A DNA stretch of 53,179 nucleotides from Fidelibacterota bacterium (lineage in GTDB: Bacteria; Fidelibacterota; Marinisomatia; Marinisomatales; UBA1611), in contig JAOHKG010000005.1 in the NCBI GenBank assembly GCA_028101095.1, positions 1-53,179 on the forward strand, read 5' to 3'. Of the stretch, positions 5,063 through 34,825 are shown piece after piece. Every line of letters starts with the position of its first letter. Within the stretch, counting starts at the first letter, position 1. The notes under the pieces were generated by a model. That model did not search any database. It was given only the letters and a program-made list of their open reading frames with translations, and was not told the origin of the DNA. The translations under genes and the position numbers were made by a program.

Positions 5063-5918
5063 TTATGATTTTTTAATCACAAAAAGAATAGCTATAAAAA
5101 TTAAAAGGGATCCGAGTATAAAATTAAATGAAATATTCTCATGAAAAATAAAAAGCCCACCCAGAGCTGCTAATGGAACTTGAATGTAGCTCATAGTTGC
5201 AGCCTTACCAGCTGGAAGAACCCTATATCCAAATGTTAAAAAAGTCTGTCCTAATTGGGTAAAAAGACCTATCATAAATAAATATATCCAATTAGTAAAT
5301 GTAGGTGTGGACCAACTTAAAAGTGTAAATGGAAGACTTAAAGGGACTGTAAATAAAGGAAAATAAATCATTATAACATATGGTGATTCTTTTAACTTTA
5401 AACAGAGGCGAACAAGGACATAGGCTAAAGCTGTAAAAAATAGCTCCCAATAAAGCAAAAAGAACATCTAAATATTGCAATGATTCATCATAAGACATAA
5501 ATGGATAGTTCAAAACAGAATATACACCCAAAAAACCAAAAGCAACTGCAATATAACTTTTAAATGAGGATCTTTCATTTAAGAAAATTGAAGCAAATAT
5601 TACAGTGAAAATAGGATATAGATATTGAATAACCGTAGCTTCTGACAATGAAAATCTTTGAATCGATTCATACACAAATAATAGTGCGAGAGTACCTACA
5701 ACACCTCTTAAAATCAGTACTTTTTTATTATAACCCCATAAATATTTTTTTTTCTTTTTAATAATTAAAAAGGTGATTAGAAGCGTAAAAAGACCTCTGA
5801 AGAAAATAATTTGGAAGGTTCCAATATTTTGGCCTGAAAGCTTAACAAATATTGTCATTAAACAGAATAAAACCGCACTTAACGATATATATAAATAACC
5901 TAAGATGCTAAAATCCAA
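5063..5918 (-). pseudogene. EamA/DMT family transporter, frameshifted
   Basis: Two frames together encode one drug/metabolite-superfamily permease. The first part starts with TTG at 5918 (FSILGYLYISLSAVLFCLM) and carries about five helices up to LLGAIF. The second part continues with TALAYVLVRLCLKLKESPY to the stop at 5063. They join at a T6 run (A6 at 5435-5440 on the plus strand). Removing one T gives 284 residues, the normal size for a 10-helix EamA protein. Both EamA repeats are otherwise well kept, with no stops inside. The break is therefore very recent or a sequence error. The transported metabolite cannot be told. Confidence 0.85.
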
Positions 5919-7599: not shown

Positions 7600-8823
7600 T
7601 CATGACATGATCCACTTACGCACTTCATTAAATGTGATTTTTTTACCATACAGTAAAATCGCAGTCCTGAAAACTTTTCCTGAAGCTTTTAACATAAATA
7701 AACAAGAAAAAATCATTAGTACACTTGTGTAAAACACTTCCATTAAGCTAACAGAATCAGTACCAATTCGTATAATCATCATGAACGGTGTTAAAGGTGG
7801 GATATAAGAGATTCCAACTGTGAATGCAGATTCAGGGTTTGTAATAAAATAAGATGCAAATGCGATTGGCAAGACAGCAACAAGGCTTATCATGCCACTA
7901 GATTGCTGAGCTTCTTGTTCGGAAGTGAAAAATGTTCCCATTGCGGCGAAAATAGATGCATAAAAAAAATAGCCAGTTACAAAAAAAATAAGAAACAGAG
8001 GAATTTGCGAGAGTTCAATGACCGCCATACCCCTAAAATAAGTGACGGATAGAGCAATTAATAGATAAAAAAGCATTTGAGTTAGTCCTAGGGCTCCCAA
8101 ACCAAAAATTTTTCCTCGCATTAATTCATCGGGAGTGACAGATGATAATAAGATTTCGATAGTTCTACTTGTACGTTCTTCCATCACCGATCTAAGGAGT
8201 AGTTGACCACTCATAAAAATAGTCATGAATAAAATCATTAAAAATAAATAAGGTACTAAAAAACTTGATAAGGTATCAACTTTTGAAGCTTCTCCAAGTT
8301 CATCAAGTTCGAATATTTCAAAATTGATCCTTCGACTCAATTCCCCGACTAATGAAGCATCTATTTTTTGATCAATCATCCTCTGTTCGATCACAACCGT
8401 ATTTAGCAACCTTCTTAAACTTGTATATATTTTAATATTACTTAATGAATTACTGAAGTATTTCACTCTTGTGGTATCTAATACGCCGAGAGGAATATCT
8501 AGATAGCCTGTGATTTTTTTTTCTTCCACAGCACTTAAAGCAGATTGATCACTAGAAAACTTTAAAAAAGAAAATTCAGACAGACCATTTTTCAACTTAA
8601 GAGATTCTCTAGCCTGGTCTTGAAACCTTTTGACTAGCGCTTCGTTTACATCATTATACCTTAAGCCAATTATTTTATTTTCATCTGGCTCAAGGTCCAT
8701 TAGTAATGATGGTAAATACATTACTCCACCCATAAAAAAAGGAAGTATAAATGTTGTTAAAATAAAAAGCTTTGTTTTAACTCGATTTACAAATTCCCAT
8801 TTCATGATTTTCCAAATTTGCAT
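7600..8823 (-). CDS. ABC-2 type transporter permease (NatB-like)
   Basis: This 407-residue permease has one N-terminal helix (about 20-40), a large extracytoplasmic segment (about 40-190), and five more helices between about 190 and 385. The motif RSVMEERTSRTIEILLSSV before the second half is characteristic of the NatB/YhaP group. That group exports Na+ or other small solutes with an ATPase partner. Its ATG overlaps the stop of the ATPase gene (TAATG at 8821-8825), so the two are translated together. The substrate is not shown by the sequence. Confidence 0.93.
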   Translation of the reverse strand: MQIWKIMKWEFVNRVKTKLFILTTFILPFFMGGVMYLPSLLMDLEPDENKIIGLRYNDVNEALVKRFQDQARESLKLKNGLSEFSFLKFSSDQSALSAVEEKKITGYLDIPLGVLDTTRVKYFSNSLSNIKIYTSLRRLLNTVVIEQRMIDQKIDASLVGELSRRINFEIFELDELGEASKVDTLSSFLVPYLFLMILFMTIFMSGQLLLRSVMEERTSRTIEILLSSVTPDELMRGKIFGLGALGLTQMLFYLLIALSVTYFRGMAVIELSQIPLFLIFFVTGYFFYASIFAAMGTFFTSEQEAQQSSGMISLVAVLPIAFASYFITNPESAFTVGISYIPPLTPFMMIIRIGTDSVSLMEVFYTSVLMIFSCLFMLKASGKVFRTAILLYGKKITFNEVRKWIMS

Positions 8824-9710
8824 TACCGAGACTCCCTTACTTCATCAATAAATATTTGCTCAAGAGTTGGGATTTTAACTTGGAAGGATTCAACATCAAC
8901 AATTTTATTTATCCAATTAAGAAATGATCGATGATCTTTTTTTACAATACCAGAAACAAAATTTTCTTTCACTATAACATTTTCTAAATAATTTTCAACT
9001 TTTTCAATATCAACCTTCCCATCGAATACAACCTCTATAGCTTTTGTCTTTTTTGAATCTTTTACAGCTCTCAATTCCCCCTCTAAGATTATTTTTCCTT
9101 TATTTATAAGCGATATGTTAGAGCAAAGCCTTTCAACCTGTTCCATTTGGTGCGTTGAAAAGATAATTGTTTTACCTGCTTGAGCTTTTTCTTGAATAAT
9201 TTCCTTAAGAAGTAATTGATTTATCGGATCTAAGCCCGTAAATGGTTCATCAAGAATTAAAAGGTCTGGATCATTTAATAGGGCAATTATAAATTGAACT
9301 TTTTGCTGATTACCTTTAGAAAGTTCTTCAATCTTTCTATTCTCTTGATTTTCAAGGCTAAACCGATTTAGCCAAGTTTTTGTATTTTCGTGAGCTTCAA
9401 ATTTATTGAAGCCCTTAAGCATTCCAAAATAACAAATAGTTTCTAACAACCTTTGTTTCTGATAAAGCCCTCTATCTTCTGGTAGATAACCTATCCGGGT
9501 ACGATCTTTTGAATTGATATCTTTTCCATTCAATTTTATAAAACCGGTATCAGGTTTTATAATCCCCATTATCATTCTAATAGTGGTTGTTTTCCCTGCA
9601 CCATTTGGCCCTAGAAATCCATAGATATCACCTTCATCTATTTTAAGTGATATACCTGCTACAGCTTTAATATTTCCATATTGCTTTACAAGATTGTTAA
9701 GAATTAGCAT
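8823..9710 (-). CDS. ABC transporter ATP-binding protein (NatA-like)
   Basis: This is a 295-residue cytoplasmic ATPase, taking the ATG at 9710. A GTG at 9737 would add nine residues but overlap the upstream gene by 26 bases. Walker A is GPNGAGKTT, the signature is LSKGNQQK, Walker B is LLILDEP, the H-loop is FSTH, and the stretch GYLPEDRGLY is typical of NatA proteins. A C-terminal domain of about 80 residues follows. It lies one base after the PafA-like gene and overlaps the permease gene, so it energises that permease. All catalytic motifs are intact, in contrast to the ATPase at 31173. Confidence 0.95.
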   Translation of the reverse strand: MLILNNLVKQYGNIKAVAGISLKIDEGDIYGFLGPNGAGKTTTIRMIMGIIKPDTGFIKLNGKDINSKDRTRIGYLPEDRGLYQKQRLLETICYFGMLKGFNKFEAHENTKTWLNRFSLENQENRKIEELSKGNQQKVQFIIALLNDPDLLILDEPFTGLDPINQLLLKEIIQEKAQAGKTIIFSTHQMEQVERLCSNISLINKGKIILEGELRAVKDSKKTKAIEVVFDGKVDIEKVENYLENVIVKENFVSGIVKKDHRSFLNWINKIVDVESFQVKIPTLEQIFIDEVRESR

Positions 9711-9711
9711 T

Positions 9712-11325
9712 TTAAATGTCCAGAGCTTTTCCGTCACAATATTCAGGAATGCCTATACCTAAATATTTAGCTATTGTTGGTGCAATATCTACTGTTTCTA
9801 CTTTTTTATGATTTTTATGTTTTTCGTAATTTTTATGTGAGAATATTAAAGGAACGTGGGTGTCATAATCATAGGGAGACCCATGAGAAGTACCATAAGG
9901 AGACCTATAAAGAAAATTTTCTTTTTGAATAACAAAAATTTCTGGACTTTTTGTCTCATGCAACATATTTTTTATTCTTCGTGTTATCTTATCTTGTTTT
10001 TTACTTTCAAGAATTTGAGCTTTATCAATAACAGCACCGATACCTTTTACGTTTAAAAGATGCTTTTTGACAATTAAAAAAATCTCATTTGGTAAAACAT
10101 TTTCTCTTTTTAAATCGTTCATATGCAGATAAAAATTTGAACCATCTCTATAATAAAACTTACGACCGTATTTTTCAATACACTCTTCATCAACCCAACT
10201 CAAAGCTTCATTCAAATGAGCTTTATTTATACGACCAGCTTCCTTGCCTTTTTCAACTAAATATTCTGGCAACGGTAAACCACCATGATCAGCCGTTAAA
10301 ATAAAAAGAACATTATCTAACCCTATAACTTTCTCAACATTTTGGATAAACTCTCCAAGGTAAATATCTAACTTGATAAATGCATCCATAGCTTCTTGTG
10401 AGTATGGTCCGTAATCATGAATAATCCAATCCATGGCGGATAGCCCAACGAACAATAAGTCAGTTTTATCTTTTTGACCTAAGTTTTCTTGAATGATCGC
10501 TTTTAAACTAAGTTTTAGAACCTCTTTCTCAAACCAAGGTCGACCCATGATTACTGAATTAGGGTCAGTTAATAAGTCAATTCCTATTGGAAATACTGGA
10601 GAGTAAGTATCGCTATTATATTCATCACTTTCACCATAGTAAAAATCAGCCCTAGAGTATTCTGTGTAAATTTTTTCATCTAAAGATCTAATCCAAAGTG
10701 AATCTTTGTATGTGGTAAAATCTAATTGACTATTATATTCGCTAACCCATTCAGGAAGTTTATCTCTATAAAAACTTGAAGTGATAAAATGTCCAGCTTG
10801 GTTATAATATAGCGGCAAGGTAGGGTTCTTACCTCCTAAAATACATGCTGTTCTATCCTTACCCCCAATCGAAATTACCTTAGAACTTGGAGAACTTTCT
10901 TGCAGCCAATCTCCTAAACCATAAGCATTATATCGGGAAAAAGACCTAGCCTTTCCTTTGGAAGAACCAACTACAACAGAATTTGGATCTTCAACACAAT
11001 TTATTTTTTTCTTTAAATCTCTATCATAAAAACTATTTCCAAGGACTCCAATCTTTCCAGGGTACTGACCAAAACCAATAGCCGCGTGTCCAGGTCCCGT
11101 AGCTGTATAGCTGTGTTCATGATGAGTATTGGAGTACCAAGCGCCATTATCAATCAACCATTTAAATCCTCCATTATAAATTTTTTCGTACCTAGTCAAA
11201 AGATCAGGTCTCATTTGGTCAACTACAATAGTAATAATTAGTTTAGCAGGCTTTTGATTTCCGGAGTTACAGGAAATATTAAAAAAGTATAAAAAAAGTA
11301 AAAGGCCTATATTTTTAAGCTTCAA
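9712..11325 (-). CDS. PafA-like alkaline phosphatase lipoprotein
   Basis: This 537-residue member of the alkaline phosphatase superfamily is predicted to release phosphate from monoesters outside the cytoplasm. The signal ends in NISC (Cys19), suggesting a lipoprotein. Active-site features match PafA: D36 in VVDQMRPD, nucleophile T76 in TATGPGHA, N97 in GVLGNSFYDR, the Lys/Arg pair in GGKDRTA, HDYGP, TADHGG, and a late metal His in GTSHGSPYDYD. The Lys/Arg pair is characteristic of the monoesterase branch. It starts with TTG at 11325, overlapping the tyrS TGA as TTGA. It is cotranscribed with tyrS and the NatAB exporter. No Pho-box was looked for with confidence. Confidence 0.88.
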   Translation of the reverse strand: MKLKNIGLLLFLYFFNISCNSGNQKPAKLIITIVVDQMRPDLLTRYEKIYNGGFKWLIDNGAWYSNTHHEHSYTATGPGHAAIGFGQYPGKIGVLGNSFYDRDLKKKINCVEDPNSVVVGSSKGKARSFSRYNAYGLGDWLQESSPSSKVISIGGKDRTACILGGKNPTLPLYYNQAGHFITSSFYRDKLPEWVSEYNSQLDFTTYKDSLWIRSLDEKIYTEYSRADFYYGESDEYNSDTYSPVFPIGIDLLTDPNSVIMGRPWFEKEVLKLSLKAIIQENLGQKDKTDLLFVGLSAMDWIIHDYGPYSQEAMDAFIKLDIYLGEFIQNVEKVIGLDNVLFILTADHGGLPLPEYLVEKGKEAGRINKAHLNEALSWVDEECIEKYGRKFYYRDGSNFYLHMNDLKRENVLPNEIFLIVKKHLLNVKGIGAVIDKAQILESKKQDKITRRIKNMLHETKSPEIFVIQKENFLYRSPYGTSHGSPYDYDTHVPLIFSHKNYEKHKNHKKVETVDIAPTIAKYLGIGIPEYCDGKALDI

Positions 11326-28882: not shown

Positions 28883-29314
28883 TTGAAAATTAAAATATTA
28901 GTATCAGGGAAGATCAAAGAAACAAGGTATGCTTCTAAAGCCAAAGAATACCTGAAATGGATCTCAAGTCAAGTATCACTAGACCTAGTATTTTTGAAAG
29001 ATAATGATTTAAAAAAATTATCAGATAAACAAATTCACAGTTTAGATCCTACCTATTTTTCTATTAGTCTGTCTGAAGAAGGTAAAGGGTTTTCATCAAA
29101 AGAATTCTCAAATTTTATTTATAGCATCAATAAAGATTTAATATTTATACTAGGACCACCGGACGGATTAAGCGAAAAATTAAAAGAGTCAACTGACTTC
29201 ATTTTGTCGATGTCAAAATTTACTTTACCACATGAGTTAGCTTATTTAGTTCTGATAGAGCAAATCTATAGAGCTATGTCAATTCAGAATGGTAGTAAAT
29301 ATCACAGAGCTTAG
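28883..29314 (+). CDS. rlmH: 23S rRNA pseudouridine-1915 N3-methyltransferase RlmH
   Basis: This 143-residue SPOUT methyltransferase modifies pseudouridine 1915 in helix 69 of 23S rRNA using AdoMet. The knot is visible: LIFILGPPDGLSEKLKE, then LPHELAYLVLIEQIYRAMS and the ending NGSKYHRA, which matches the family's NxxxYH ending. It starts with TTG at 28883, with no ATG upstream that fits. It is slightly shorter than the 155-residue Escherichia coli enzyme because its N-terminal half is compact. The 3' end overlaps the convergent alr gene by four bases. Confidence 0.95.
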   Translation: MKIKILVSGKIKETRYASKAKEYLKWISSQVSLDLVFLKDNDLKKLSDKQIHSLDPTYFSISLSEEGKGFSSKEFSNFIYSINKDLIFILGPPDGLSEKLKESTDFILSMSKFTLPHELAYLVLIEQIYRAMSIQNGSKYHRA

Positions 29315-30414
29315 ATTTTAATCTTTTCTGTTCTCCCTTGAATGCCCACTAATAATACGTAAGTTGTTGATGAAATTTCTTTAGCAAGTTTTTCTATTGG
29401 AATAGTATCATTGTCTTTTTCCCCAAAAAATAAAACTTCCTCTCCAATTTTTGGATTTACGTCTTCAAAATCGATCATTAGCTGATCCATACATACTCTT
29501 CCCGCAATTTTGTAATAACTTCCCTTGTAGCTTATATAGCCATGTTTAAACCATTGCCTTGGAAAGCCATCAGCAAAACCAGTTTGAACTACCGCTATAT
29601 TAGTCCTTTTTGATGTTATATACTTACCGCCATAACTGACTGGTGTTCCAGCAGAAACTCTTCGAATGAAAATAATAGGACCACAGAAGCTCATTACTGG
29701 TTTATATTCTTTTTTAATTTGGACATCACTTGACGGAGACACTCCATACAATAGCATACCTACTCTCACTGTATTAAACCAAGAATTTGGGAGATTAATA
29801 ATTGCACCACTATTTGAACAATGAATATATTTGAAGTTGATTTTATTTTTTTTTCCAGATTCTATGACTTTATTAAATTTATTTAACTGATTTAAAGCAA
29901 ATGACAGATCACCTTCATCAGCTGTTGATAGGTGGGAATATATACCTTCGATTGGAATATGCTTATTTAACTTTAGAAGTTCAAAAAGAGGTTCTGCTTC
30001 ATTTAGATCAAATCCCAATCGAGTCATTCCAGTATCAAATTTTATATGGATTTTTGGACAAGCTTTATATTTCTCATAGAACTTTAGAACTTCATTTAAG
30101 TCTTTAAAACTTGTTAAATTTATCCAAAAATCTTTTTGATATGCAATTTTAAGCCATGATGGTTGCATTTTAGAAAATATAAGAACATTATTAGTTATAC
30201 CACCATCTCGTAGTTCTAAAGCCTCCTCTATAGTAAAAACACAAAATATAATCTTATTTTCATTTCTAAGAGCACGTGCGATAGTTAAAGCTCCATGACC
30301 ATATCCATCGGCCTTGACTACAACCATTAGACTTTTATCACCAATCTCTTTTTTTATATTTGATAAATTATTTTTTAATCTATCAATATGTATATACGCC
30401 TTAGGACCAATCAT
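29311..30414 (-). CDS. alr: Alanine racemase
   Basis: This 367-residue PLP enzyme interconverts L- and D-alanine for peptidoglycan. The PLP Lys is K34 in VVVKADGYGHGA. The catalytic Tyr of the partner subunit lies in GTPVSYGGKY, and the DGFPR and GRVCMDQLMIDF blocks are intact. TIM-barrel and C-terminal beta domains are in normal order and length. It lies 11 bases downstream of the frameshifted ABC permease gene on the same strand, so it may share that transcript. The end meets rlmH tail to tail. Confidence 0.97.
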   Translation of the reverse strand: MIGPKAYIHIDRLKNNLSNIKKEIGDKSLMVVVKADGYGHGALTIARALRNENKIIFCVFTIEEALELRDGGITNNVLIFSKMQPSWLKIAYQKDFWINLTSFKDLNEVLKFYEKYKACPKIHIKFDTGMTRLGFDLNEAEPLFELLKLNKHIPIEGIYSHLSTADEGDLSFALNQLNKFNKVIESGKKNKINFKYIHCSNSGAIINLPNSWFNTVRVGMLLYGVSPSSDVQIKKEYKPVMSFCGPIIFIRRVSAGTPVSYGGKYITSKRTNIAVVQTGFADGFPRQWFKHGYISYKGSYYKIAGRVCMDQLMIDFEDVNPKIGEEVLFFGEKDNDTIPIEKLAKEISSTTYVLLVGIQGRTEKIKI

Positions 30415-30425
30415 ATTTATATTAT

Positions 30426-31176
30426 TTACTGTAACATTTTTCTTTTTAACAGAAAACTATTGAGTAATACCCATAAATAAATAATTGGAAAAAGAGATAA
30501 AAGAATCTTGAGGTTTATTATTCCAATCGAATTAAATGTGCGATAAAGTTGGAAAGGCAACGATAACGGATGAAGGGTTAATAACTCACCTAACCCATTT
30601 GGAAAGAATGAAGTTTCGATAATAAAACCATTACCAAATATATTGATTAAGAAAATTATACTCATTGATAATAATACTGAACTCAAAGTATCTATTATTA
30701 GTAAAAAGGTGATGAAAAGATTTCCAATTAAAAATAAATATAAAATAAGAGTTGATAAAAAAAAAGAATGCGTTTAGAAAGCTAAACGATATTTCAATAA
30801 AGCTAGTGTATATAAAACCTGTTAGAATAGAGACTATTATAGTTTCTACAATTGCAACAACTAGGTTAGAAAAAACAATTTTAGTTTTACTATGAGGGGT
30901 AAGTGCAATATTAATTAAACTCTTCCCATGCATACGTAAGTCAAAAAACTCCCTGAATAAAGGTGGGAAAATGACAATTGAGCCTAGGATAAAAATTAAG
31001 CCAGGAAAAGCCCATACATCATAAGGAACACCTGAAATACTATATCTAATAATATTTTTGAGTGGTGAACCAATCATAGCAAAAATAATGAATGGTAGTA
31101 TTAAATATAAGAATACGCTGGGAATGAGTCTGTTTTTGAAAAGCCAAAATCTTCTTATCAATAGAGCTTTTATCAA
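30426..31176 (-). pseudogene. ABC-2 type permease, frameshifted
   Basis: Two frames encode one membrane protein. The first begins with TTG at 31176, overlapping the ATPase stop as TTGA, and carries about four helices to LNAFFF. The second continues LSTLILYLFLIGNLFITFLL and ends at 30426. They join at a T9 run (A9 at 30757-30765 on the plus strand). Removing one T gives a 249-residue, six-helix permease of normal ABC-2 size. The partner is the ATPase just upstream, which has lost switch residues. Decay of the whole system, a sequence error, or slippage on the T9 tract are all possible. Confidence 0.8.
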
Positions 31177-32099
31177 TTTAGCCCTTTCCCTGCAAACTCT
31201 GAGTCTAATAAATCTCTTAATCCTAAATTTTTAACTTCAAGGTTAATCATCATATTATCTGATGCTTCTCGGACAACATCAAAAAAAACACTTCTATTTC
31301 TTCCATAAAAATGAAAAGTATTATCTAACTTATTTGGTGAAACAACAGTGACAATTTTTTTCAATTTTTTGTATAAATCATCAGACAATTCGTCAAATTC
31401 AATTTGAAACTGATGATAATCCATTGTGCTTTCCAAGAGTTTATCTAGATGCCCATCCATTAGAATACGTCCTTCATTAAATACTAAAATACGATCATGA
31501 GCTTGCTCAATCTCGCTTAAAGAATTACTTACATAAATAATTGACTTATCACCTCTCAGTTCTTTTATTAAATCCCATGTGAGTCTAATAGACTCTGCAT
31601 CCATAAAAGCTGTTGGCTCATCCATAATTAATACATCCGGGTTGTGAATAAGAGCACGGATAAGCATTGTTTTTTTTTGCTCTCCGCCTGAGACTCTGTG
31701 AGAAAACTCGTTTAGACTTTTATTTAAATTTAGTAATGCAGAGTAATAGTGTATTTTTTCTGTTGATTTAACAGGATCAATCCCATATAAATGTGCATTG
31801 AAAAGGATATTTTGTTTTAATGTAAGCCAAGGATCTAGGTTACTCTCATATGGAACGTACCCAATCAGCTTTCGAGTCTCTTTTCTACGCTTTTCCATGT
31901 CTAAACCATGAATAAACACCTGTCCATAATTAGGATTTTCATATCCAGATAATAGTTTAAGGAGAATTGATTTTCCAGAATCATTTTCACCAACAATCGC
32001 AACAAGACTACCACGCTCTACACCAAAGGAAAGACCAGCTAAAACTGTTTTATCTCTTACTATTTTTCCTACTTTTTTTAAACTAATACTCGCTTCCAT
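31173..32099 (-). CDS. ABC transporter ATPase with altered Q-loop and H-loop
   Basis: This 308-residue protein (ATG at 32099; AAGGTGA upstream) has Walker A GENDSGKS, signature RVSGGEQKK, Walker B LIMDEP and a D-loop-like FMDAES. The usual Gln of the Q-loop is replaced (IGYVPYESNLDP, Tyr in the Gln position). The H-loop reads YVSNSLSE where STH is expected, so the switch His is Asn. A C-terminal domain of about 90 residues resembles CcmA/drug-exporter ATPases. It should pair with the frameshifted permease downstream. Nucleotide binding looks possible, but hydrolysis may be weak or absent. Confidence 0.85.
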   Translation of the reverse strand: MEASISLKKVGKIVRDKTVLAGLSFGVERGSLVAIVGENDSGKSILLKLLSGYENPNYGQVFIHGLDMEKRRKETRKLIGYVPYESNLDPWLTLKQNILFNAHLYGIDPVKSTEKIHYYSALLNLNKSLNEFSHRVSGGEQKKTMLIRALIHNPDVLIMDEPTAFMDAESIRLTWDLIKELRGDKSIIYVSNSLSEIEQAHDRILVFNEGRILMDGHLDKLLESTMDYHQFQIEFDELSDDLYKKLKKIVTVVSPNKLDNTFHFYGRNRSVFFDVVREASDNMMINLEVKNLGLRDLLDSEFAGKGLN

Positions 32100-32110
32100 C
32101 AAATCACCTT

Positions 32111-34825
32111 CTAGTGTGCCTTATACCAATTATTTCCAACACCATAATCGACTATCAGTGGAACTTGTAATTCCATTGCATTTTCCATTTTTGAAATAAC
32201 AATATTTATTAGTTCTTGTTCCTCTTCAATTGGATATTCAAATAGTAATTCATCATGGATTTGTAAAATCATTTTAGCCTTCATTTGATTCTTTTCTAAT
32301 TTACTATGTATTTGAATCATCGCGATTTTTATCATTTCGGCTGCAGTTCCTTGAATAGGCATATTAATAGCCATCCTTTCTGCTGCTTTTCTTCTTAAAC
32401 CATTATCAGAATCAGCATCCCAGACAGGTCTTTTTCTACCTTTAATAGTGGATACAAATTTTTGTTTTTTTGCCATCTCAATTGTTGAATCTATATAATC
32501 TTGAATACGAGGATATTCATTAAAATAAGAATCAATAAGAGCAACTGATTCTTTTCTTGGTATTCCAAGTTCTTGACTCAATCGAAAAGGTCCTGCACCA
32601 TACATAATTCCAAAATTAACAATTTTAGCAGTGCGGCGCATCTCAGGTATTACATCTTCTATAGAAACATTAAAAACTTTACTAGCTGTTCTTGTGTGAA
32701 TATCTTCCTTTTGGTTAAATGAAGAAATCAATTCAGCATCATTACTAAAATGAGCCATTATTCTTAACTCTATTTGAGAATAATCTGCCGATAAGATTTT
32801 CCATCCTTTTGTTTGTGTTGAAAAGGCTTTTCTTATTTCTTTCCCTTCTTCAGATCGGATTGGGATATTTTGAAAATTTGGATTAGTACTAGATAAGCGA
32901 CCAGTCGCCGCTATTGTCTGATTAAAAGTAGAGTGAATGCGACCAGTGTTCTTATTTATTAATTCAGGGAGCGAGTCAATATATGTATTTTTTAATTTAT
33001 TATATTTTCTATAAGCCAACACTAGTTGAGGTAACTCATGTTGGAGGCTTAAGTGATTAAGTACCTCTTCCGCGGTACTGCGCTTTTTAATTTGTGGCAA
33101 GTTGAGCTCATCAAATAAAAGGTTTGCCATTTGCTGGGTTGAATTGATATTAAAATTTTCTTTTGAAAAAGAATATATTTTTTTTGTCAAATCATCTAAA
33201 ATGATTTGAATCTTTTCAGACATTTGCTTTAAAAATTTAGAATCAACATAAGCACCATTATGCTCCATTTTTAAAAGTACATTGATAAGAGGTGTTTCAA
33301 TGGTTTCTAGATAATCGCTAAGACCTATTTCTACAAGCTTTCCTTGAAGTAACTTTTTTAGTTTAAAAATAGAATATGAATCATCACAAGCCTGTTGCAT
33401 GAGTTTTTGGACATCAACATCTTCAGTTTTAATTTTATTCCTTCCTCTTCCTAATAAATCATCCATTGATTCTAACTCAATATTTAGATACTCTAAACTT
33501 AAAGAATCAAGTGTATTTGATCTGGAAGAAGGGTTTATTAAGTGGGAGGCTATCATAGTGTCAAAACCTAAACCAGATACATTAATGCCTTTATTTTTTA
33601 AAACGGAAATATTGTACTTAATATTATGGCTATTTTTTAAAATTTTTGTACTCTCAAAAACAACTTTTAATTCATTTAATATGTATAATAAGTCATTATC
33701 AGAAAAACTATTTTTATCTTTGTGAAAAATAGGAATGTAAAAACTTTTATTTGAATCAAAGCAAAAACTAATACCAATTATTTCTGCATTCATTGGAGAT
33801 ATGTTATTAGTTATAAGTGAAAATGAAACTTCTTTTTTAGTTAATATCTCTTTAATTAATCGACTCAAATCTTCTTTGGTATTAACTATTAAATAATTTG
33901 TTTCGGTTTTTCTCTCTGCTGCAACCTTTACTGTATTTGAATTAATTTGTTTTACAAATGCATGAAATTCTAAACTCGTAAATTTCCTAACGGTTAAATC
34001 AACATCCATTTTTTTTATTTTTAAATCTTTTATCTCTAAACCAAGTTTAACATCTGTTAAAATTGTTGCTAATTCCTTACTCAGCTTAGCATTTTCAACA
34101 CCTTCTTTTAAACCATTATGAACTCTTTTATTCGTAATATTATCTGCATTTTCAAGTGCAGATTCAAGCGAACCATATTTCTTTAGCAGTTTAACAGCTG
34201 TTTTTTCACCTACACCAGCTACGCCAGGAATATTATCAGCTGAATCACCCATAAGACCTAGTAAATCAATAATTTTATTTGGAGGAATTCCCCACTTTTC
34301 TTCTACTTTCTCAGGAGTATAAATTATTGGGGTTGGTGATTTACGAGTTCCCGGTGAATACATAGATATATGATTATTTATCAATTGCATAAAATCTTTG
34401 TCACCACTAACAATAAATGTTTTTAGGCCTTGTTTATCAGCGTCTACCGCGATTGTTCCAATTATATCATCAGCTTCAACCCCAGGCTTTTTTAATACTG
34501 GAATATTCATAATTTCAAGAATTTCCCATAAGTGCGGTAACTGGGTTTGTAATTCTTCCGGCATAGGCGGACGATTAGCTTTATAATCATCATACATATC
34601 ATGACGAAATGTTTTTTCCTTTGAGTCAAAAGCACACACAAGGTATTCTGGTGACTCTGATTTAATTAGTTTTAATATTTGATTTATAAAACCATATAAA
34701 GCACTTGTGTGTAGCCCATAAGAAGTAACCAAGGGGTTTCTTATAAGGGCAAAGTGTGCCCGGTATAAAATTGCATACCCATCAACAATAAAAAGACGTT
34801 TTCTTTTAGAATCACTTATTTCCAT
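32111..34825 (-). CDS. polA: DNA polymerase I
   Basis: This 904-residue polymerase is intact over three domains. The 5' nuclease (residues 1-290) has DGYAILYRAHFA, GVEADDIIGT, SGDKDFMQL and GLMGDSADNIPG. The central 3'-5' exonuclease-like domain (about 305-490) has lost most metal ligands: the DxE of motif I is absent (VSFSLITNN) and the motif II Asp is Asn (HNIKYNISV). The polymerase domain (500-904) has motifs A (SADYSQIELR), B (RRTAKIVNFGIMYG) and C (QIHDELLFE). It therefore probably lacks proofreading, as in several other bacterial Pol I enzymes. It repairs DNA and removes RNA primers. It lies 8-10 bases before the ABC ATPase gene. Confidence 0.97.
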   Translation of the reverse strand: MEISDSKRKRLFIVDGYAILYRAHFALIRNPLVTSYGLHTSALYGFINQILKLIKSESPEYLVCAFDSKEKTFRHDMYDDYKANRPPMPEELQTQLPHLWEILEIMNIPVLKKPGVEADDIIGTIAVDADKQGLKTFIVSGDKDFMQLINNHISMYSPGTRKSPTPIIYTPEKVEEKWGIPPNKIIDLLGLMGDSADNIPGVAGVGEKTAVKLLKKYGSLESALENADNITNKRVHNGLKEGVENAKLSKELATILTDVKLGLEIKDLKIKKMDVDLTVRKFTSLEFHAFVKQINSNTVKVAAERKTETNYLIVNTKEDLSRLIKEILTKKEVSFSLITNNISPMNAEIIGISFCFDSNKSFYIPIFHKDKNSFSDNDLLYILNELKVVFESTKILKNSHNIKYNISVLKNKGINVSGLGFDTMIASHLINPSSRSNTLDSLSLEYLNIELESMDDLLGRGRNKIKTEDVDVQKLMQQACDDSYSIFKLKKLLQGKLVEIGLSDYLETIETPLINVLLKMEHNGAYVDSKFLKQMSEKIQIILDDLTKKIYSFSKENFNINSTQQMANLLFDELNLPQIKKRSTAEEVLNHLSLQHELPQLVLAYRKYNKLKNTYIDSLPELINKNTGRIHSTFNQTIAATGRLSSTNPNFQNIPIRSEEGKEIRKAFSTQTKGWKILSADYSQIELRIMAHFSNDAELISSFNQKEDIHTRTASKVFNVSIEDVIPEMRRTAKIVNFGIMYGAGPFRLSQELGIPRKESVALIDSYFNEYPRIQDYIDSTIEMAKKQKFVSTIKGRKRPVWDADSDNGLRRKAAERMAINMPIQGTAAEMIKIAMIQIHSKLEKNQMKAKMILQIHDELLFEYPIEEEQELINIVISKMENAMELQVPLIVDYGVGNNWYKAH

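Follow-up and report, generated by a model that had tools for sequence, protein, structure and literature searches.

The ABC transporter genes in the stretch of DNA analysed here (the window, 53,179 nucleotides) probably belong to an ABC system of type V-like architecture that is spread through the phylum and has noncanonical nucleotide sites; the permease gene of this one genome carries a private frameshift, be it real or an error of the consensus. Comparison across the family shows the unusual substitutions of the ATPase to be old and conserved, and the permease break does not look like the outcome of long decay; it has the appearance of damage that is recent and confined to this genome, or of a sequence error. 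On the minus strand the locus reads polA, ABC ATPase, permease and alr (alanine racemase), with alr starting 11 bases past the permease stop. The window has a GC content of 31%, and its source genome measures 1.22 Mb and is 60% complete in a fragmented assembly. Table 1 presents the features of the locus.

Table 1. Features of the polA-alr locus and of NatA in the window
Feature	Position	Strand	Basis or remark
polA	32111..34825	-	conserved upstream neighbour of the ATPase
ABC ATPase, nucleotide-binding domain and C-terminal domain, 308 aa	31176..32099	-	PF00005, E 2.5e-29
Walker A GENDSGKS, intact	31968..31991	-	sequence
Q-loop position, Tyr84 (Gln usual)	31848..31850	-	codon
Catalytic Glu161 of Walker B, intact	31617..31619	-	sequence
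H-loop position, Asn192 (His usual)	31524..31526	-	codon
Permease, both pieces	31176-30426	-	permease family profile
Permease first part, 137 codons, original frame	30766..31176	-	permease profile positions 1-148
T9 run (A9 on the plus strand), frame change	30757..30765	-	sequence
Permease second part, other frame, ending ...LLKRKMLQ and stop	30426..30756	-	profile positions 138-249
alr (alanine racemase)	29311..30414	-	conserved downstream neighbour
NatA	8823-9737		H-loop His; Q-loop position Glu

The histidine of the H-loop is commonly taken as the mark of a working ABC ATPase. The window ATPase has neither this residue nor the Q-loop glutamine of canonical ABC ATPases, their places being taken by Asn192 and Tyr84, respectively. 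The Walker A lysine (in GENDSGKS) and the catalytic Glu161 are both present, exactly as the original prediction had described; the signature reads RVSGGEQKK and the Walker B/D-loop region MDEPTAFMDA. The protein scores 103.1 bits against the Pfam family ABC_tran (PF00005), above the cut-off of 25, and stays under the cut-offs of two NCBIfam equivalogs, GldA (145.9 against 402.6) and DrrA (138.8 against 312.45). From these features the ATPase had been called switch-defective, a label that the sequence does not imply. According to a review (PMC7756269), mutation of the H-loop histidine at NBS2 of MRP1 nearly abolishes transport, and the Gln and Asn mutants at this position behave like the wild type and keep transport, so that a switch defect cannot be derived from the presence of either residue.

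The NatAB system of the window (7600-9737) had been put forward as an internal control with all motifs. Like the polA-alr system, it is of the ABC-2 type with a separate ATPase, but it differs from the window ATPase in that NatA retains the H-loop histidine and has a glutamate at the Q-loop position (GYLPEDR); its signature reads LSKGNQQK. On account of this glutamate NatAB was dropped as a control, and its place was taken by 32 other ABC ATPase genes, which come from the window genome, a congeneric genome and several further ones. All 32 (34 of 34 rows) carry the H-loop histidine, a count that concerns the H-loop only, since some of these genes are themselves without the Q-loop glutamine. Two rows belonging to the polA-alr family and one fragment without the H-loop region were excluded from the control.

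Relatives of the locus are numerous. A scan of contigs gave 27 loci, of which 22 are close orthologues with 54-79% identity; 18 of these come from records that bear the name (Neo)marinimicrobiota or Marinimicrobia, the phylum to which the window genome is accordingly assigned, three come from records with broader names, and one (L024) comes from a record named Gammaproteobacteria. The contig of this last locus is filed under uncultured Gammaproteobacteria, carries a Marinimicrobia locus 77% identical, and is probably misbinned. In 20 of the 22 close orthologues the permease gene is uninterrupted, in one open frame; in the other two the contig ends before the gene does. A profile search with the ATPase matched 115 of 245 genomes of the phylum at E up to 1e-60; these loci probably overlap the 22 orthologues and are not taken as independent of them. 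Their permease is open, with a length of 241-253 aa, in 107 of the 108 readable, ungapped loci, the sole exception being the window, and three of the 107 (L066, L113 and L120) contain more than five ambiguous letters. Elsewhere among the 115, the permease is cut by the end of the sequence in L054, L086, L102 and L123, and no permease DNA is present at the locus in L064 and L162. L074, which is interrupted by scaffold N, was considered as a second broken permease and ruled out, its gap being a run of X.

The order that recurs among these loci is polA, ATPase, permease, YLSGAM and alr, sometimes with a neighbour unseen in the available sequence, and each locus encodes one family ATPase, a count made at the level of the locus only. 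YLSGAM, named here after its motif (AYLSGAME...), is a conserved gene of about 154 aa that lies between permease and alr (for example at L023:6676-7137); it has no Pfam match at E 0.01, and was not found at the window locus. With a permease profile, 188 of the 245 genomes were matched at E up to 1e-6, and among 30 further stretches of sequence, 27 have polA, YLSGAM or alr, or more than one of them. The three others, L188, L193 and L195, are canonical ABC systems without any of these genes and were ruled out as family members. A broader ATPase search covered 392 genomes, most of which are Neomarinimicrobiota, and matched 159. The sole match outside the phylum (L206, in genome G341) is canonical (PQ, TTH), has no polA, alr or YLSGAM match in the available sequence and was ruled out as a member of the family.

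The age of the ATPase substitutions was read from a tree of 139 family ATPases and eight canonical outgroup controls. The 139 comprise 114 of the 115 profile-matched ATPases (the truncated L162 being excluded) along with 25 that are more distant and have polA, YLSGAM or alr beside them; as a group they stand apart from the eight outgroup ATPases with a support of 99 (FastTree; long branches flagged). Their H-loop position is occupied by Gln in 77, Asn in 43, Ser in 10, His in four, Arg in two, and Tyr, Lys and Asp in one each. The Q-loop position is more varied, with His (52), Gln (42), Asp (14), Phe (8), Leu (8), Tyr (7), Glu (3) and five other residues found once each. The catalytic position is Glu in 116, Asp in 17, His in three, and Gln, Asn and Lys in one each, and the Walker A lysine is kept by 136 of the 139, with Leu (two) or Ile (one) in the remainder; the signature is degenerate in many family ATPases. 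With the controls included, the fewest changes on the tree are five for the H-loop, six for the Q-loop, seven for the catalytic Glu and one for the Walker A Lys. The simplest history would be a single loss of the histidine near the base of the family, followed by a few returns. An apparent covariation between the Q-loop and the first cytoplasmic loop of the permease (LRxH in 58 of 78 loci without the glutamine and in 0 of 34 with it) was set aside, since the Gln losses in this set belong to a single crown clade and the association thus amounts to about one event.

The original prediction had considered a decay of the system in both parts, ATPase and permease. The family speaks against it: the H-loop histidine is absent from 135 of the 139 ATPases, the permease is open at all readable, ungapped loci but one, and orthologues combining the same kind of substitutions with an intact permease are found in large numbers, a finding that the original prediction itself had named as refuting it. 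Joint decay is thus rejected: the ATPase changes occur across the phylum, and the permease break in the window only. The two changes therefore arose separately and at very different times.

As for the break itself, the predicted change of frame at the T9 run was borne out: the two pieces match consecutive parts of the permease family profile with a short overlap, and therefore correspond to the two halves of one gene with a single break between them. The count of lesions is one frameshift in the window permease and zero in the window ATPase, with no further frame break or stop beyond the T9 run in either gene. The permease being open in all other readable, ungapped loci, the frameshift is either recent and private or an error of the consensus. 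That it is a consensus or assembly error, the organism itself having an intact permease, is a serious possibility. Apart from the 107 open permeases, it has in its favour that the second half runs on through 109 codons without a stop once the frame is shifted, that this half departs at 0 of 4 columns otherwise invariant in group f1 (the first half at 0 of 13), and that the assembly is fragmented and incomplete. A further point in its favour is that another gene of the window is split between frames: an EamA-type transporter (5063-5918, minus strand), noticed among the window ORFs scanned with Pfam, falls into two overlapping frames with one EamA domain each, its break not lying at a run of eight or more. 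Against an error, A/T homopolymer runs inside the window ORFs number 27 of length 8 and 11 of length 9 (the T9 run included), with none of 10 or more in the 53 kb and no run of nine outside the listed ORFs, and a frame break was seen at only one of them, some of the ORFs having been compared with relatives. Moreover, the second half of the permease resembles its relatives less than the first half does in 11 of 12 comparisons; in the baseline, L050 against 11 relatives, the second half is the less similar one in only 4 of 11. This is a weak sign of relaxed constraint.

This weaker match of the second half is also what would be expected if the frameshift were real and the system had recently started to be lost in the window lineage, a reading that can be held tentatively. 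The window ATPase has a long terminal branch (0.20, exceeded within f1 only by L090; FastTree) and differs at 4 of the 124 columns that are constant among the other f1 members compared, the third highest value of 28. Its genome is small, 1.2 Mb at 60% completeness, and the related small-genome group f9 (about 0.4-1.0 Mb) has no member among the 115 or the 159 genomes found to carry a family ATPase; the permease profile matches 11 f9 genomes weakly (E 1e-8 to 1e-11). Loss fits poorly, however, with an ATPase that is open, full length and still equipped with Walker A and the catalytic Glu, as well as with the Asn that marks the H-loop of its clade, and with two genes that show no other frame break or stop. 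The dN/dS ratio is uninformative for the window's own branch, because synonymous sites are saturated in seven of the eight comparisons between the window ATPase and its nearest relatives.

It is improbable that the frameshift is real and that a full-length permease is still made through RNA polymerase slippage on the run of nine. Bacterial slippage on such runs is known, and nine-A/T runs are described as slippage-prone in many bacterial genomes (PMC1088944); the low GC of the window would agree with this. But no readable relative has the same break, so nothing suggests a programmed slippage site, and slippage is a minor rival for the window permease.

The class of the transporter was assigned from structural models. 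The permease model was made from an intact relative (L023) rather than from the window, with a pLDDT of 93.0, and has a six-helix fold with an amphipathic entry helix, as in type V / ABC-2 permeases. It matches ABCH-9C with a Z of 19.2 (rmsd 3.5, 240 aligned), TarGH with 17.7, and WzmWzt, NosDFY and KpsMT with 16.5, and Z ranges over 15-19 across the best 50 structural matches listed; Foldseek alone gave no match for this model at E up to 0.001. By sequence, the permeases of 17 of 17 relatives match ABC2_membrane when E values up to 1 are allowed, the best being 5.3e-7; the one relative with a score given reaches 19.2 bits against the Pfam cut-off (PF01061) of 26.9. The window permease pieces have no ABC2_membrane match, and a PDB sequence search with the permease profile returned one chance-level match only. 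Like WzmWzt, KpsMT, TarGH, NosFY and the type V exporters of the ABCG/ABCH kind, the system pairs an ATPase with a six-helix permease, and the fold match is nearly full length for the L023 model, but the sequence similarity of the family permease to these systems is only remote. As far as is known, the solved members of the type V exporters have a canonical H-loop. The window ATPase model (pLDDT 87.1) has its best match in TM_1403 (4yer) at Z 31.1, with 273 aligned and an rmsd of 3.1; chains of MacB and CbiO come within 1 Z unit of it. TM_1403, NosF and ABCA-type ATPases are among its nearest folds, C-terminal part included, but TM_1403 shares only 22-25% identity with it, and ABCA3 has PQHD and TTH where the window ATPase has PYES and VSN.

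Taken as a working transporter, the ATPase and permease would form one vertically inherited ABC system of Neomarinimicrobiota, situated between polA and alr. Two ATPases and two permeases would assemble into an export-type complex of type V (ABC-2/ABCG-like), ATP would be held at the dimer interface by Walker A, signature and Walker B, all of them intact, and the H-loop Gln or Asn would assume the hydrogen bond to the gamma-phosphate; the exchange at the Q-loop would be tolerated in an order-level crown group. A lipid-linked or amphipathic molecule, exported by the complex, may be guessed as the cargo from the modelled fold. We infer that in most of the family the ABC system works and another residue serves as the switch, because 120 of the 139 members carry Gln or Asn, the two residues reported as competent in MRP1 (PMC7756269). 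Several points count against this reading: the MRP1 data describe one site of an asymmetric human transporter, whereas the homodimer expected here would be altered at both, the signature is degenerate in many members, some lineages have lost the catalytic Glu or the Walker A Lys, the window ATPase deviates at constant f1 columns, its own dN/dS is uninformative, and Foldseek alone left the permease without a match. Pdr5, ABCG5/G8, MRP1 and CFTR have likewise lost the catalytic Glu, the Walker A Lys or the H-loop His and are functional, according to the same review. They are, however, asymmetric and keep one canonical site, whereas a locus of the present family encodes a single ATPase, with the change then expected at either site of a homodimer. 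Among the open-licence papers listed, no report was recognised on this polA-alr ABC family or on a natural bacterial family of ABC ATPases with a His-to-Gln/Asn exchange.

Selection on the ATPase was estimated from the 40 closest pairs, out of 218 within the same families that share at least 80% identity. The dN/dS ratio lies between 0.009 and 0.25 in 38 of the 40, the other two being saturated, which shows strong purifying selection in the sampled close pairs. Low ratios are also found in pairs with Asp for the catalytic Glu: 0.013 (L104/L108), 0.015 (L102/L117), 0.016 (L101/L106), 0.023 (L075/L081), 0.036 (L096/L106) and 0.062 (L084/L086), with L075/L107 and L096/L101 saturated. The departure from the canonical motifs goes furthest in group f8 (L136, L138, L140 and L162). 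Its three full-length rows have the P-loop GDN[DE]DSG[LI]T, in which the Walker A Lys is lost and one residue gained; DHPTAFMN stands in place of DEPT..D, and the H-loop residue is Ser where readable. The f8 permease is nevertheless open in the three loci with enough DNA, and the closest pair (L136/L138) has a dN of 0.054 and a dS of 0.71 in the ATPase and of 0.073 and 0.53, respectively, in the permease; two other f8 pairs are saturated. The ATPase-permease pair of f8 is thus constrained despite the loss of the catalytic Glu and the Walker A Lys. Upstream of f8, polA was not found in the two loci with upstream DNA (L136 and L140).

These lineages bear on the other reading that the original prediction had offered, a non-transporting sensor or regulator. 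For the window it does not stand as shown, its H-loop Asn being, with Gln, one of the residues reported to leave MRP1 competent for transport (PMC7756269); lineages without the catalytic Glu or the Walker A Lys may be such proteins. Since 23 of the 139 members are without the catalytic Glu and f8 is without the Walker A Lys, ATP hydrolysis can hardly be essential to the role of the family everywhere. To extend this to the family as a whole, as an ATP-binding gate, sensor or scaffold that is no longer a transporter and for which hydrolysis is dispensable, seems unlikely. The replacement of the catalytic Glu by Asp, His, Gln, Asn or Lys, with at least seven changes on the tree, the constrained f8 pair and the low ratios of the six Glu-to-Asp pairs point in that direction, but the great majority of members retain the catalytic Glu (116) and the Walker A Lys (136), and 120 have Gln or Asn at the H-loop, with which MRP1 is reported to be active. 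Similarly doubtful is a stepwise departure from ATP hydrolysis, in which the histidine would have been lost near the base, the Q-loop Gln in several lines, the catalytic Glu several times and the Walker A Lys in f8, all under purifying selection with the permease; its outcome would be a non-hydrolytic membrane device, such as a gate, a scaffold or a passive lipid path, with f8 as a complete pseudo-ATPase. The lineages without the catalytic Glu, and f8 above all, fit a standard pump poorly and are the main novelty of the family.

The working, noncanonical ABC system preferred here is of interest beyond the window, as an old and well-sampled natural family in which nearly every member is without the H-loop histidine and in which the losses are graded, up to that of the Walker A Lys. 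With its ready natural variants one could ask which residues are needed for transport and whether an ABC complex can serve a purpose when it does not hydrolyse ATP. The family also calls for caution, since the loss of a motif in one genome is a poor ground for calling an ABC ATPase dead or decaying. A last variant within the family is seen in group f10 (L134, L135, L137 and L139), where the Walker B Asp is replaced by Glu (EEPT) and the catalytic Glu is kept.
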